A stretch of DNA of 23,404 nt. Source: a virus. The DNA is taken from the IMG/VR virus record IMGVR_UViG_3300044655_000132, positions 1-23,404 of that record. One strand, written 5' to 3'. Positions 5,425 through 12,722 of this stretch are shown one piece after another. The notes under the pieces were generated by a model that was not told where the DNA came from, did not search any database, and saw only the letters and a program-made list of their open reading frames with translations. The position numbers were made by a program, and so were the translations under genes. Every line of letters begins with the position of its first letter. Within the stretch, counting starts at the first letter, position 1.

Positions 5425-6828
5425 ATGGCAATCCTAGATATATTCAAAAGAAAACCAACCGCCAATGAAAGCAATACGCTTTTCGGGCAAACAGCCCTTG
5501 GCAACAATGTATTACGAAACACCAATTCTTATCCAACATCTGCCGCATATCAATTATTATATGTAACGACTTCAAGCGTTACTGAAGCCGGGCGAACCGT
5601 TGATATGTCCGTGCTATCACGGAACAGCACCATCATGTCTTGTATTGGTGTCAAAGCCCGTGCGGTTTCACAACTGCCAATTAAGATTATGGCTTATGGC
5701 GATGATGGCACATTGATTGATGCTTGCACTAATCCTAATGTTTCAGCCCGTGATAAAGCAAAAGCGCGTTCCGTTGCTAGTTTGCTACAAAACCCTAACC
5801 ATTTCCAAAGCCAATACGAATACTGGTATCAGTTTATGATGTGGCATGAATTGGCTGGCGAAACATTTACATTGCTATGGCGCAAAGACCAAGACCAAGT
5901 TTTGCAAACGCCACTTGAAATGTATATTCTTGATTCAACCCTTATTACAGCGCAATTAACGGAAACCCGTTACCCTGCTTATAGGTTATCAACCCCGACT
6001 TATGGCTTTAGTAAAGACGAACCTTTGAAGGCACATCAAATCCTTCATGTTATGGATGCGGCTTGGCAAGGTTCGGGTTCATTTAACAAAGGCATATTGG
6101 CAACTGAATTAGTTGGTCTTGACCAAGACATAGACTTATACGCCAACTTTGTAATGCAGAACGGTGCGAAACCCACAGGCATATTTAGAACAGAACAGGT
6201 CATACCCGATTCACGCTATAAAGAAATCGCGGCACGCTTGAAAGAAGCATGGTCAAGCATGATGGGTTCTAAACAAACCGATTTAAGCAAACCCGGTCAA
6301 TCCATGTTGCTAGACAACGGCATGGTTTACGAATCAATCAAAATGCTAACATTGCAAGATGCGGATGCCGCAACGCTTAAAATGCAGACCATGAAACGGA
6401 TTTGTGGTTTGTTTGGTGTGCCGCCGCAAATGATTGGCATTGATGAAGGCAAGTTTAATAATTCACAAACTGTTATTGATGAATTTTACAAAACAGCAAT
6501 TTATCCTTTGTTAGTAAACATACAGCAAAAGTTAAAAGCAAGTTTGTTACAAGGTTATCCAAACCTTTGCATTGAATTTCAAACCGATGATTTCTTAAAA
6601 GGCGCACCGTTAGACCAAATGAATTGGGCGGTTGCTGGCGTTACCAATGGTTTACTTACGCCAAATGAAGCGCGTGAATATCTTGGCAAGCCAAACAAGG
6701 CTGGCGGCGATGAATTAAAAGATACAAGCAAACCTGCAACAGCAATCGCAGGCACAAGCCCACAAGATACTGGCGGCGGCGGCAACACATCAAGCGTTGG
6801 CAAAACAGGTCAAGCAGGTAAAGCATAA
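5425..6828 (+). CDS. Portal protein (HK97 family)
   Basis: The 467-residue product forms the dodecameric ring at the capsid vertex through which DNA enters and leaves. It begins MAILDIFKRK, as HK97-type portals commonly do. Family landmarks include SRNSTIMSCIGVKARAVSQL, LLQNPN with the aromatic run YEYWYQFMMW, GETFTLLWRK, the segment ICGLFGVPPQMIGI, and NNSQTVIDEFYKTAIYPLL with the following helix. The C-terminal tail is Gly/Ala/Thr-rich and low complexity (TGGGGNTSS), typical of a disordered end. It is the first gene after a likely promoter and leads the head operon. Confidence 0.93.
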   Translation: MAILDIFKRKPTANESNTLFGQTALGNNVLRNTNSYPTSAAYQLLYVTTSSVTEAGRTVDMSVLSRNSTIMSCIGVKARAVSQLPIKIMAYGDDGTLIDACTNPNVSARDKAKARSVASLLQNPNHFQSQYEYWYQFMMWHELAGETFTLLWRKDQDQVLQTPLEMYILDSTLITAQLTETRYPAYRLSTPTYGFSKDEPLKAHQILHVMDAAWQGSGSFNKGILATELVGLDQDIDLYANFVMQNGAKPTGIFRTEQVIPDSRYKEIAARLKEAWSSMMGSKQTDLSKPGQSMLLDNGMVYESIKMLTLQDADAATLKMQTMKRICGLFGVPPQMIGIDEGKFNNSQTVIDEFYKTAIYPLLVNIQQKLKASLLQGYPNLCIEFQTDDFLKGAPLDQMNWAVAGVTNGLLTPNEAREYLGKPNKAGGDELKDTSKPATAIAGTSPQDTGGGGNTSSVGKTGQAGKA

Positions 6829-6963
6829 ATGACAAAAAAAGATTTGAAGGAATTAAGGTTATTATTATTGACCGTTCAAATGAAACAAGCGGCTGACAAA
6901 CGCATTACATTGCCGCTTAATCAAAACGGTGTAAAAAACAAAGGGGTTAATATCCATGACTAA
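6829..6963 (+). CDS. Small hypothetical protein, 44 aa
   Basis: An ATG directly abuts the portal TAA (6826-6828), and the frame ends in TAA at 6961-6963, overlapping the protease start at 6956 by eight bases. The product begins MTKKDLKELRLLLLTVQMKQ, one basic amphipathic helix, then a basic tail. Without it the portal-protease gap would be 127 bases, long for this operon. It may only keep ribosomes moving into the protease gene, or be a small head protein. No function recognised. Confidence 0.5.
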   Translation: MTKKDLKELRLLLLTVQMKQAADKRITLPLNQNGVKNKGVNIHD

Positions 6964-7762
6964 AGATGTGAAGTTTTACTATGAAAGCGAAGTCGCTTTA
7001 GGCGTTAGTGCCGATGAAGCGGAAATGTGCGGAACGATTGAAGCGCAATTTACGACTTGGGGGGCAAGAAGCGGCGCAGACGGGCGTAAATTTAATTATA
7101 AGGCTGAACCATTCCTTGAATGGGCAAAAGCCTTAGAAGCGTCAGGAAAGCCCTTGCCGATGTATTTCCAACACAATGACGAATCAATGCCTGTTGGTGA
7201 ATGGACTTCATTTGAATTTGACGACAAAGGTATGTCCGGCACAGGTCGTTTGTTTACAAACACAAGCGTTGGCAAAGACCTTTATACTATAATGAAGGAA
7301 TCGCCAAACATGGTTGGTGGTGTTTCAGTTGGCGCATACGCTGACGAATACTGCATGGTTGATGCTGAAGGCAATATGCTTGATGCTGGTATTGCGGCAG
7401 ACGAAGGTTATTTCCAAATAACTAAAGGTGGTTTGCGCGAAGTGTCAATCGTTATGCAACCAAACAACCTAGAAGCAAACATTAGAAAACTAGAATCATG
7501 CCTTGAAGCAGATGGCACGATTAACCCAAGAAATTTGGAATCTGCCTTGCGTGATGCAGGGGTTTCAAAACAGAATGCGGCGGTTGCCGTTTCTGTATTT
7601 AAGGGCGTATTGGAAAGTCGGCGTGATGCTGGCGAAACAGTTACCCTTAAAAACGACACGGTTCGGCGTGATGCTGAAGCGGAAGCCGCCAACAGCGAAT
7701 TGCTTGCCGCACTTGCGGAACGCGATTTGTTAAAAAAACTTAACCAAAGAATTAAAGGATAA
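6956..7762 (+). CDS. Prohead serine protease (HK97 gp4-like)
   Basis: The 268-residue protein matures the procapsid by cutting the scaffold part from the major capsid protein. Visible landmarks: MCGTIEAQFTTWG at 24-36, catalytic His73 in MYFQHND, a beta segment VGEWTSFEFDDKGMSGTGRL, catalytic Ser124 in GGVSVGA, and GLREVSIVMQPNN, the usual closing strand. The last 80 residues (from about LESALRDAGVS) are charged, helical and probably disordered or scaffold-like, as in relatives. Its ATG lies within the preceding small ORF. It ends three bases before the first capsid gene. Confidence 0.92.
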   Translation: MTKDVKFYYESEVALGVSADEAEMCGTIEAQFTTWGARSGADGRKFNYKAEPFLEWAKALEASGKPLPMYFQHNDESMPVGEWTSFEFDDKGMSGTGRLFTNTSVGKDLYTIMKESPNMVGGVSVGAYADEYCMVDAEGNMLDAGIAADEGYFQITKGGLREVSIVMQPNNLEANIRKLESCLEADGTINPRNLESALRDAGVSKQNAAVAVSVFKGVLESRRDAGETVTLKNDTVRRDAEAEAANSELLAALAERDLLKKLNQRIKG

Positions 7763-7765
7763 ATC

Positions 7766-9112
7766 ATGTCAAAAGAAATCATTGAAAAACTTGACGCTAT
7801 TGAAGCACAAAATACTGCTGAAATTGCAAAAGTTACCGAAGCAGTTGCATTGCAAGTAGCGGCTGTTGAAGAAAAACTAACCCAAGAATTTGCAGAAAAA
7901 GTTGCGGCTTTAGAAGCAAAAGTTGCTGATATTAAATCCCCATCAATCATCAAAGTTCAAAAGACTGTTGGTGCTGATGTTAATAAACGCGTTAAAGAAG
8001 CATTGTCTTCATTCTACAAAGGCAACAGCCGTCTTGAAAAAGAATTTGCTTTGTTTGCTGATGAATCAGAACACGAAGCGTTTATGAAAGAAGCGTCTGC
8101 CTTAACTGGTTCAGGTGCAGGTATCGGTGGTCGCACGGCTTATGACCCTGTATTTACACCATTGCGTTTGGCTAACCCTTTGCGTGGTGTTGGTCGTAAT
8201 GTAACAACTGACGGTTCTACCTATCAATTCCGTGCGCGTGTTGGCAATCCGGGTGAAGGCTGGGGCTATCCTGTTGTCAACAATACTGCGGCAACAACTG
8301 AAAACACAAACATTTGGCAATTAAACTTGCAAGATTTGAATGTGCAATTTCCAGTTAGAACAGCGGCTTTAGATGACATTGACGGTTTGGAAGCAAACAT
8401 TGTTTCAGACATGCTTAGTTCATTTTCGGAAAGTGAAGGTCTTTCAATGGTGCAGAACAATGACCAAGGTGCGACCACATTACCATACGGCGGTTCAAAC
8501 GGCTTACGCGGTTTAAATCAATATCCGGGTGCTAATGCAACTTACACAGGCGGCAAAACTTCAACAGCGTCATTTGGCACAAGCGGCACAGGTTCATCTG
8601 CTGGTTTACACAGCATTGCAACTTACGACCAATTGACAACCAATGGCAACACCATTACTAACAATGTAAATTACAAAGATATTGTTAATTTCATTTACGC
8701 ATTGCCACAACAATACTGGACTGAATCTGCTAAATTTATGATTAGCCCGTTAATGCTTGCCGCAATTCGTGGTTTAACTGACACAAATGGTCGCCCAATT
8801 TACATTGACGGTTTATCACGCACAGACGGCATTGTTGGTTCATTGCTTGGTTTTGATGTAGTAGTCAACAAATACCTAGATGTTCCTTCAATCACTTCAA
8901 CTGCAAGCACCGACAGCCTATATCCAATGTATTTTGGTGATTGGTCAAAAGCCTTTGCAATCGTTGATAGATTGAACATGGTATTGCGCCGCTACGACCA
9001 AACGACACCGGGTTCAATTGTGTTTTTTGGCGAAAAGCGTGTGGCTTCTTCCATCGTTGACTGCAATAGTATTATTCGCTATCGTTCAACAGCAACAGTA
9101 ACAAAACCATAA
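7766..9112 (+). CDS. Major capsid protein 1 with N-terminal scaffold (HK97 fold)
   Basis: The 448-residue product has an N-terminal coiled coil of about 60 residues with heptad spacing (IIEKLDAIEAQ, then VAAVEEKLTQEFAEKVAALE), the delta-type scaffold removed by the protease. After a linker, the mature shell begins near EASALTGSGAGIGG (about 112-125). Capsid landmarks: LRLANPLRGVG, IWQLNLQDLNVQFPVRTAAL, DDIDGLEANIVSDML, NNDQGATTLPYGGSNGLRG, ALPQQYW, and the C-terminal RRYDQTTPGSIVFFGEKR. AAAGGA stands seven bases before the ATG. It is followed by an intrinsic terminator and then by a second capsid gene related to it. Confidence 0.93.
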   Translation: MSKEIIEKLDAIEAQNTAEIAKVTEAVALQVAAVEEKLTQEFAEKVAALEAKVADIKSPSIIKVQKTVGADVNKRVKEALSSFYKGNSRLEKEFALFADESEHEAFMKEASALTGSGAGIGGRTAYDPVFTPLRLANPLRGVGRNVTTDGSTYQFRARVGNPGEGWGYPVVNNTAATTENTNIWQLNLQDLNVQFPVRTAALDDIDGLEANIVSDMLSSFSESEGLSMVQNNDQGATTLPYGGSNGLRGLNQYPGANATYTGGKTSTASFGTSGTGSSAGLHSIATYDQLTTNGNTITNNVNYKDIVNFIYALPQQYWTESAKFMISPLMLAAIRGLTDTNGRPIYIDGLSRTDGIVGSLLGFDVVVNKYLDVPSITSTASTDSLYPMYFGDWSKAFAIVDRLNMVLRRYDQTTPGSIVFFGEKRVASSIVDCNSIIRYRSTATVTKP

Positions 9113-9126
9113 CATCGGTGAAAATT

Positions 9127-9154
9127 GGGGGTGGCAAGCCCATCCCCTTTTTTT
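9127..9154 (+). terminator. Intrinsic terminator between the two capsid genes
   Basis: GGGGGTGG (9127-9134) pairs with CCATCCCC (9140-9147) as an 8-bp stem with one G-U pair and a five-base loop CAAGC, followed by seven T (9148-9154). It lies 15 bases after the first capsid stop. This is a strong rho-independent terminator. The head and tail genes continue on the same strand, so it must be read through in part or overcome, and would lower expression of everything after the first capsid gene. Confidence 0.88.
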
Positions 9155-9175
9155 AATTTTTTAGGAATCAAAACC

Positions 9176-10219
9176 ATGAAGACTGAACAGATTTTAAATG
9201 GCATTAAGGAAGCGTTGATTGATGGAAAGTCAATGGTAAAGTTTTCCGAAAAAGCCCAAGTAGTAAACGAAGCATCGGATTTAACAGGTAGCGGTTTAGG
9301 CATTGGTGGTAAGTATTATTTTGATGATGCTTTTGCCGCATTGCGTTACGCAAACCCTTTCCGTCAAGGTTCACGCCAAATAGTTGGCAAAGGTTCTGCC
9401 GCACAATTCGTTGCCAAAACTGGTAACGCTACAAGCGCGACAAATCCTTTTGGATATACGGTTGACCCTAATAGTGGTTCACCAAACATTGCAACATCGT
9501 TTTGGCAATTGCCAATGCGTGTTATATCAGCACAGTTGCCTATTCGTAGTGCGGTGCTAGATGACATAAACAACTTAGAAGAAGCGGTTGTTCAAGATTT
9601 AATGCTAGAATTTTCGGCTGTTGAAGCCGCATCAATGGCAATCAATGATGACCAATCAGGTTCAACAACATTAACAACAGGTGGCACAGATGGTTTGCGT
9701 GGTTTTGTAAACTATACAACAGGCACAACTGCGGCTTATGGCACAAGTGGCACAGCCATTACAAACGGGTTGCACACCATTAAAACAATTAGCCACAGCG
9801 TAACAACTATTGATTACAATATGGTTACTGACATTGTTAATGCGTTGCCAGCACAATACTGGTCATTGCCATCAACTGCTTGGCACATTCACCCAACTTT
9901 AATCAATTCAATTCGTCAGTTAAAAAATACTGCCGGTTTGCCTTTGTTCTTAGAAGTTGGTGATGATGATGGCGCGGCAGTTGGCTATATGTTTGGCTTC
10001 CCTGTTATCCCTAACCCATACCTTGCCGAACCTGCTGTTGGCGCAATACCATTAGTGTTAGCAAATTGGGATAGATTTATAACCATCGTTGATGGCGAAG
10101 AAATGACAATCCAACGCTTTGACCAAACACAGCCCGGCACGGTAGTTCTTTATTGCGAACGCCGTATGGCTAGTAGCGTGCGCGACCCATTTGCAGGTGT
10201 GTTCTTAAAAGGTGTGTAA
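9176..10219 (+). CDS. Second capsid paralogue lacking the scaffold domain
   Basis: I choose ATG 9176 (TAGGAA upstream) over the in-frame TTG at 9125, which would translate the terminator. The 347-residue product aligns along its whole length with the shell part of capsid protein 1: EASDLTGSGLGIGG, LRYANPFR, FWQLPMRVISAQLPIRSAVL then DDINNLEEAVVQDLM, NDDQSGSTTLTTGGTDGLRG, ALPAQYW, and RFDQTQPGTVVLYCERR at the end. It has only about 32 residues before the EAS motif and no coiled coil. So it is an HK97-fold shell protein that needs no delta cleavage. It may co-assemble with capsid 1, form pentons, or be a minor or decoration component. Function inferred; homology is clear. Confidence 0.88.
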   Translation: MKTEQILNGIKEALIDGKSMVKFSEKAQVVNEASDLTGSGLGIGGKYYFDDAFAALRYANPFRQGSRQIVGKGSAAQFVAKTGNATSATNPFGYTVDPNSGSPNIATSFWQLPMRVISAQLPIRSAVLDDINNLEEAVVQDLMLEFSAVEAASMAINDDQSGSTTLTTGGTDGLRGFVNYTTGTTAAYGTSGTAITNGLHTIKTISHSVTTIDYNMVTDIVNALPAQYWSLPSTAWHIHPTLINSIRQLKNTAGLPLFLEVGDDDGAAVGYMFGFPVIPNPYLAEPAVGAIPLVLANWDRFITIVDGEEMTIQRFDQTQPGTVVLYCERRMASSVRDPFAGVFLKGV

Positions 10220-10221
10220 AA

Positions 10222-10872
10222 ATGAGTGATACCGCATACGGACAAGTTGCATATTCAGCGACACGCAACCCTTTCAATTATGAAAAAATTGAACAGATTA
10301 ACCGTGCCTTAAACACAAGTTGGCTAACACTTGATGAAATAACAAATCAATTAAACTTGTTTCAAGATGAATCGCAAGATGCTTATTTGCAAAGTTTAGA
10401 ATATGCAGTTCGTATGCACATTGAAGATTACTTGGGGATGCCTATTTTCCCGATTACTTTTCGCACTTATTACGGCATTAGTTCACAATACAACACGCCA
10501 ATGTTTTTAGATTTGCCTGAAGTTTCGCAAAACGCAACCGTTATCAATAGTGTTAAGTTTTATAATGCAGACACGCCAAGCATTCTTGAAACATTAGCGA
10601 CTTCAACTTATTACTATGACGCAACTGGCAACAAGGTGATTTTAAATGGTGGCATTCCATCTAATATAAGCACTTTTAGAACATCGCCAATCGTTGTTGA
10701 ATATACTGTAAGCCCAAGCATATTGTCGCAATATCCGGTGATTAAGCAGGCTGGCTTGTTGTTATTGACACACTTATATAACAATAGAAGTGATACAACA
10801 TCAACAGCATTACAAAAAATACCGTTTGGCGTTGATGCTTTATTGCGCCCTTATAAACCTTTGGTAATGTAA
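10222..10872 (+). CDS. Head-tail connector (HK97 gp6-like)
   Basis: The 216-residue protein contains WLTLDEITNQLNL followed by QDESQDAYLQSLEYAVRMHI and EDYLGMPIF (about 32-74), the helical core of gp6-like adaptors that form a ring under the portal. A beta-rich middle (YYYDATGNKVIL) and the C-terminal helix YPVIKQAGLLLLTHLYNNRS, with the closing segment IPFGVDALLRPYK, complete the family pattern. Length is within the longer (phiE125 gp8-like) branch. The start is two bases after the preceding stop. Its place after capsid and before the head-closure protein is the standard order. Confidence 0.85.
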   Translation: MSDTAYGQVAYSATRNPFNYEKIEQINRALNTSWLTLDEITNQLNLFQDESQDAYLQSLEYAVRMHIEDYLGMPIFPITFRTYYGISSQYNTPMFLDLPEVSQNATVINSVKFYNADTPSILETLATSTYYYDATGNKVILNGGIPSNISTFRTSPIVVEYTVSPSILSQYPVIKQAGLLLLTHLYNNRSDTTSTALQKIPFGVDALLRPYKPLVM

Positions 10873-11693: not shown

Positions 11694-12188
11694 ATGGCAT
11701 TACCAAATAAAGTTTTACCGGGTTTTAGTGCAACCCTATATATGCAACCAACATCAACACCAACACCGTTGACAGTAGCGCAACTTTCATTAGTGGCAAG
11801 CGTTTCACCAATAGCAATTTCAGGCAACGCAGTTCCAGTTGAAAACATCCCTGCGTTTGGTGCTGACGATGCTGTTGCTTCATTTGGTGTTGCTGGTTCA
11901 CGCCAAGGCGACAAAATACCGGTGCAAAATGCGCCAACATCCATGTCAATCACAGCGGCATGGAATCCTTCTGATGCACAATTATTGTTAATCCGTGGCG
12001 ATTCTTACAATGGCACAGTTGACCGCACCTTTGTTATTGCCGCAACAGATGGCACAAACATTGTTTACTATGCGTTCAATGGTCGCGTAGGTAATTTTCA
12101 AATTGATTCTGCCGTTGGTGCTGAAGCGAAATGTATGTTCACCATCCATCCGCGTGGCAATCAATACGGTTGGTCAAACAACGCTTAA
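11694..12188 (+). CDS. Major tail tube protein 1
   Basis: The 164-residue product is beta-rich. It begins MALPNKVLPGFSATLYMQ, then a variable segment (about 14-45), then a conserved block (AVPVENIPAFGADDAVASFG onward) to the end (IHPRGNQYGWSN). Size, composition and place between the tail terminator and the chaperones and tape measure fit a lambda-type tail tube protein, which polymerises around the tape measure. It is preceded by AAAGGAAT, a strong ribosome binding site as expected for an abundant protein. The next gene is a close paralogue. Confidence 0.85.
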   Translation: MALPNKVLPGFSATLYMQPTSTPTPLTVAQLSLVASVSPIAISGNAVPVENIPAFGADDAVASFGVAGSRQGDKIPVQNAPTSMSITAAWNPSDAQLLLIRGDSYNGTVDRTFVIAATDGTNIVYYAFNGRVGNFQIDSAVGAEAKCMFTIHPRGNQYGWSNNA

Positions 12189-12203: not shown

Positions 12204-12722
12204 ATGGCATTACCAAACAAAGTATTACCCGGCTTTTCAGCCGCACTATGGATGCAGTCAGCGGCAACGCCAACACCATTCACAACAGCAAACTTGGCTA
12301 TATGGACAGCCCAAGTTGCAACAATCGTTGGCACAGCGGCAGGTGGCACAGGCGCGGCTGGCATGGCAGTTCCGGTTGAAAATGTTCCAGCATTCGGCGC
12401 GGATGATGCGGTTGCTTCATTCGGCGTTGCAGGCAGTCGCCAAGGGGATAAAATACCAGTTCAAAACGCACCAACTTCAATGTCTATAACAGCCGCTTGG
12501 AATCCATCCGATGCCGCGTTGCTACAAATACGCGCTGATTCATACAACGGCACGGTTGACAGGACATTTGTTGTTTCTGCTTATGATGGCACAAACACCG
12601 TTGCTTATGCTTTCAATGCGCGTGTAGGCAATTTCCAAATTGATTCAGCGGTAGGTGCTGAAGCCAAGTGTTTATTTACTATTCACCCACGCGGCAATCA
12701 ATACGGTTGGTCAAATTCATAA
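12204..12722 (+). CDS. Major tail tube protein 2 (tandem paralogue)
   Basis: The 172-residue protein repeats the first tail protein: the same first 13 residues, a divergent Ala/Thr/Gly-rich segment with nine extra residues (about 14-54), then 106 of 117 identical residues from AVPVEN to GYWSN-like end (GNQYGWSN). The DNA is far less similar: in the first 40 codons of that block 24 codons differ and 23 of the differences are silent. AAGGGG stands before the ATG. It is probably a second tube subunit; the variable segment may be a surface loop. An intrinsic terminator follows. Confidence 0.85.
   Translation: MALPNKVLPGFSAALWMQSAATPTPFTTANLAIWTAQVATIVGTAAGGTGAAGMAVPVENVPAFGADDAVASFGVAGSRQGDKIPVQNAPTSMSITAAWNPSDAALLQIRADSYNGTVDRTFVVSAYDGTNTVAYAFNARVGNFQIDSAVGAEAKCLFTIHPRGNQYGWSNS

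Follow-up and report, generated by a model that had tools for sequence, protein, structure and literature searches.

Tandem HK97-fold capsid genes in a family of small freshwater siphophages and their possible division into hexon and penton proteins

The DNA analysed here, referred to as the window, is positions 1 to 23,404 of the IMG/VR virus record IMGVR_UViG_3300044655_000132 (23,404 nt). Pfam and PHROG matches indicated a head operon in the order terminase, portal (5425–6828), Peptidase_S78 protease, the capsid genes C1 and C2, and the head-tail adaptor Ad1, followed by the tail genes. The prohead (head maturation) protease (6956–7762, plus strand; PF04586, 39.9 bits; phrog_80) lies directly 5′ of C1 in relatives, and Ad1 (10222–10872, plus strand; PF05135, phrog_40) lies 3′ of C2 in relatives. 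The head genes other than the C1/C2 pair adjoin or overlap their neighbours. Two nuclease genes (1675–1965 and 2227–2640) are found just 5′ of the terminase genes; one encodes a RecA-dependent nuclease-like protein (PF16786), the other an HNH protein (PF01844).

The tail region holds a GNAT acetyltransferase gene (PF13508, 17809–18243) and tandem tail tube genes (major tail protein-like, phrog_158; 11694–12188 and 12204–12722) whose long central stretch is nearly identical. The tail tube gene is present twice in 64 of about 246 relative loci and once in the remaining loci and in phage P19250A. Identity is 0.76 between the copies of one genome and 0.69 between first and second copies across genomes. 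As the copies within a genome are the more alike, this suggests concerted evolution or repeated duplication.

C1 (7766–9112, plus strand) is a major capsid protein of 448 aa with a delta (scaffold) region and is proposed here as the hexon protein. It matches the Pfam family PF05065 (Phage_capsid) with 102.9 bits, the cutoff being 24.2, and is 61% identical to the major capsid protein of P19250A. The delta or coiled-coil region, absent from C2, covers about residues 1–65 (7766–7960, plus strand), which form C1-only columns 1–65 of the alignment. The original prediction placed a coiled-coil delta domain on C1 only, and this agrees with a long N-terminal helix (residues 2–52, low confidence) that AF2 predicted in C1 and that is missing in C2. 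A coiled-coil delta region with an adjoining prohead protease, as in HK97-type self-scaffolding, is found for C1 only.

C2 (9176–10219, plus strand) is an HK97-fold capsid protein of 347 aa without the delta region and is our proposed penton protein. It matches PF05065 with 62.9 bits (cutoff 24.2). In the Pfam search no other family rose above its cutoff in C1 or C2, and no cargo or other domain was recognised in C2. Structure prediction, which had been recommended for both proteins, returned an HK97 fold for C2 (pTM 0.71; Z of 22 to the RcGTA capsid and of 16–18 to HK97), whereas the C1 model was poor overall (pLDDT 58). The PF05065 matches and the C2 fold model confirm the claim of two full-length HK97-fold capsid reading frames.

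C2 starts with ATG at 9176, and ATG is the start codon in 140/140 distinct relatives analysed; a TTG at 9125 would be a possible extension. The ribosome binding site region (9160–9175, plus strand) contains AGGA, and a Shine-Dalgarno core of 3–4 nt is present in 138 of the 140 relatives. In the joint alignment M1 of C2 is aligned to K66 of C1, which places the start at the boundary between the delta region and the N-arm, and C2 has its own segment of 25–30 aa ahead of the EASxLTGSG motif. The earlier statement that C2 begins just before the shell is refined to this boundary.

The E-loop of C2 (about residues 67–113; 9374–9514, plus strand) holds a C2-specific insertion of 3 aa. In four relatives (L229, L239, L240 and L333) this loop carries an extra domain of about 60–70 aa, which is Thr/Gly-rich, probably beta-structured and includes the stretch ..GTGTGGTGTYTV.. 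This domain has no Pfam match, and none was flagged among the distinct complete C1 copies. The four C2 copies were at one point considered truncated and proved to be intact with the inserted domain; one more flagged copy merely has a shorter N-terminus. The A domain of C2 (about residues 171–316; 9686–10123, plus strand) is without three insertions of 6–8 aa each. These are the core-shell insertions special to C1, all of them in its A domain, and the N-arm of C1 has further, shorter extra segments.

BLASTP aligned residues 101–432 of C1 with residues 24–337 of C2 (37% identity over 337 aa, E=1e-59), which rules out C2 being a chance reading frame or one half of a frameshifted gene. The homology across the shell and the four motifs named for it were all found (EASALTGSG/EASDLTGSG, LRLANP/LRYANP, ALPQQYW/ALPAQYW and RYDQTTPG/RFDQTQPG in C1 and C2, respectively). 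In the HK97 fold the A domain lines the capsomer axis. C1 and C2 differ at 14 of the 41 conserved positions of the A domain and at 7 of the 43 in the P domain plus E-loop; this enrichment does not reach significance (Fisher p=0.10, A domain versus the rest), and we dropped it as proof of capsomer specialisation. Many invariant positions of the P domain and E-loop are common to both proteins.

The spacer between C1 and C2 usually measures 50–80 nt and contains a GC-rich hairpin with a T-run behind it. In the window the terminator-like hairpin (GGGGGTGG-CAAGC-CCATCCCC) lies at 9127–9147 on the plus strand, with T7 after it. A strict rule for hairpin and T-run was matched by 79 of 115 distinct spacers versus 1.8 expected, and, relative to mononucleotide shuffles, the fold has a z below −2 in 98% of 112 spacers. 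The letters of the stem vary across relatives and the pairing is preserved. Taken alone, the hairpin region of the window is not exceptional (z −1.7 versus dinucleotide shuffles), and its support is this conservation. The C2 start follows the T-run after about 10–30 nt with the Shine-Dalgarno site in between, which leaves no room for a separate promoter, so that C2 would most simply be translated from read-through transcripts. Because a conserved terminator-like hairpin separates the genes, C2 should be made in a smaller amount than C1, a dosage effect predicted from the spacer. Of 32 outgroup loci, 12 have a similar hairpin 3′ of their single capsid gene; it may therefore be an ancestral feature and not one that arose for the pair, which weakens the hairpin as proof of a dosage evolved for the two genes. 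A few relatives have extra DNA of about 0.3–0.6 kb between C1 and C2, namely L118 (spacer 5889–6230, with an open frame in the insert), L062 and L293.

A search of 50,697 phage records gave one record with a relative of C2, the Methylophilaceae phage P19250A, which is the only isolate we found with the C1/C2 pair and in which C2 is annotated as a “hypothetical protein”. IMG/VR holds hundreds of contigs with C1/C2 relatives, and the long ones are mostly 36–39 kb. The gene order protease-C1-C2-Ad1 is constant throughout the relatives. Where a distinct C1 3′ end has 500 nt or more of sequence beyond it, C2 follows C1 in 248/248, in one of them after an insertion of about 0.6 kb. L293, which had been considered a locus without C2, contains C2 beyond its insertion. 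One IMG/VR sample within this count was drawn on a C1 motif alone, so this sample is not biased towards C2. In the family, C2-less loci are those where the sequence stops within 115 nt of C1. A prophage scan of a genome collection yielded five MAG contigs only, with unreliable host assignment. The C1/C2 pair is thus a constant trait of a large family of small freshwater siphophages.

Phylogenetic analysis by maximum likelihood, with 28 single-capsid relatives as the outgroup, placed C1 and C2 together in one clade (100/100) and C2 as monophyletic (99/99) on a long stem of 0.78 changes per site. As the outgroup loci carry a single capsid gene, the tree shows one duplication inside this lineage after its split from the single-capsid relatives. 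C1 and C2 are as similar within a genome (identity 0.399) as across genomes (0.397), indicating no gene conversion since the duplication; this equality and the tree rule out a recent duplication or gene conversion. With median dN/dS values of 0.198 and 0.200, respectively, C1 and C2 are under equal purifying selection. C2 lineages diverge down to 46% identity (median 60%) and are nevertheless intact. Broken second genes in related phages had been named as an observation that would count against the original prediction: of the 235 distinct complete C2 copies, 2 have frameshifts (L125 and L299), possibly as sequencing errors, and all 222 distinct complete C1 copies are intact, an outcome that favours the prediction. 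The expectation that both genes are kept in related genomes is borne out by the constant co-occurrence, the one old duplication and the dN/dS of 0.20 for each gene.

We propose that C1 and C2 are paralogous HK97-fold shell proteins that would co-assemble in one head. C1 would be the abundant hexon subunit that brings its built-in scaffold, the delta region, and drives procapsid assembly. C2, which would have lost delta after the one duplication in the ancestor of the phage group, would be unable to scaffold; it would have to be recruited into the C1-driven procapsid, in lesser amount, and would fill the pentameric vertices. We infer a co-assembled head of T=7, as expected for a genome of 36–39 kb, which would give about 55 copies of C2 to 360 of C1. 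C2 is very probably a second subunit of the virion shell that is made in a lesser amount than C1. It is probably the vertex or penton protein, a place assigned from the gene pair and the parallel with T4, in which C2, as the scaffold-less, lower-dose and always-kept copy, matches the T4 logic. The core of the original interpretation, a second shell protein that lacks delta and is retained because it serves a function, has strong support. Of the roles originally offered, the penton role fits best, with the adjacency of the genes, the loss of the propeptide, the terminator between them and a divergence leaning to the A domain. Against it, the closest single-capsid relatives manage without C2, and a vertex protein is thus not required in principle.

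The main rival explanation, which we regard as unlikely, is that C2 sits beside C1 in hexamers (and pentamers) at variable or specific sites and tunes the stability, curvature or surface of the shell, as in the two-component Family 2B encapsulin. A co-assembling HK97-fold pair is known in Enc1/Enc2 of S. lydicus (PMC12407261), and the invariant positions shared in the P domain and E-loop would permit mixed contacts. Such capsomers, however, would have to tolerate the three C1-only A-domain insertions beside C2 subunits; the strong divergence on the C2 stem and the absence of later exchange between the genes speak against them, and universal retention suggests a defined position over random mixing. 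An improbable reading is that C2, without being the general penton protein, sets the triangulation number of the head or labels particular capsomers, for example around the portal vertex. Its lack of a scaffold region, the lower amount to which the hairpin points, and the order C1-C2-Ad1, which puts C2 beside the connector genes, would suit this role, but the genome size is in the ordinary T=7 range where known phages need no such factor, and a sequence feature for portal interaction was not found.

The fold matches of C2 include encapsulins, which would suit a separate particle or a non-structural role outside the phage shell. We consider this very improbable, as in the relatives the gene is flanked, inside the head operon, by those for the capsid and the head-tail adaptor, and PF05065 alone is recognised in the protein. 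That C2 is a redundant duplicate in the course of being lost and retained by chance could be read from its two frameshifted copies; this idea has practically no probability left and is already largely refuted, since the dN/dS equals that of C1, C2 is retained at every locus counted and its divergent lineages are intact. The same evidence led us to reject a decaying duplicate.

We lean towards regarding the penton assignment of C2 as a second independent viral case in which hexons and pentons have HK97-fold proteins of their own, here throughout a large family of freshwater siphophages of ordinary size. If true, two specialised subunits can share the building of a head of T=7 size, which bears on how one HK97-fold protein builds pentamers as well as hexamers and on why T4 abandoned that. 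A small pair with many natural variants and an isolate would then make penton and hexon determinants readable from sequence and testable in such a head. The analysis also corrects the “hypothetical protein” annotation in freshwater phages.

Among known systems, P19250A (KX815270; host LD28 strain IMCC19250) is a true relative with the same pair in the same order, each protein being about 61% identical, and differs in its tail tube gene, which is single there and doubled in the window. In profile and fold comparisons, the RcGTA capsid Rcc01687 and HK97 gp5 are the closest solved structures. HK97 shares a delta-domain capsid and an S78-type protease, but RcGTA and HK97 use a single capsid protein for pentons and hexons. 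The Family 2B encapsulin of Streptomyces lydicus resembles the pair in its two co-encoded HK97-fold shell proteins, Enc1 and Enc2, which co-assemble into irregularly tiled mixed shells (PMC12407261). It is, however, a cellular nanocompartment with random mixing and no portal, protease or terminase, whereas C1 and C2 belong to a phage head operon; terminase, portal, protease and adaptor genes stand alongside them in place of a non-viral operon with cargo.

T4 is the single virus named as having separate hexon and penton HK97-fold proteins in a 2025 paper (PMC12407261), and no pair of this kind in tailed phages beyond T4 was reported in the open-licence papers searched. T4 gp24 is thought to be derived from gp23 by duplication, gp23 loses 65 N-terminal residues as a cleaved propeptide and gp24 only 10, and the mutations that bypass gp24 map to the gp23 A domain (PMC9958956). 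A terminator is predicted 3′ of gene 23 in 6/6 T4-like genomes compared (PMC1524935). C1/C2 resemble gp23/gp24 as HK97-fold paralogs by duplication, with a long putative propeptide on the copy predicted to be abundant and a predicted terminator after the first gene. The genetic marks of a T4-like division, that is, adjoining paralogs from a single duplication, one of them without the long propeptide and a terminator between, are all found here. The myophage T4 has a prolate head, a genome of 169 kb and a separate scaffold core, whereas the C1/C2 genomes are siphophage genomes of 36–39 kb, or roughly 38 kb for the lineage. T4 gp23 and gp24 are about 20% identical, as against 37% for C1 and C2, which are PF05065 proteins. 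A match of C1 or C2 to the Gp23 family was not found at E up to 5, and by sequence they do not belong to the T4 gp23/gp24 family. The hexon/vertex split is so far established for T4, and C1 and C2 are outside the T4 family and have arisen in their own lineage. A division between a C1 hexon and a C2 penton, similar to that of gp23 and gp24 and independently evolved, is probably the best explanation of the pair.
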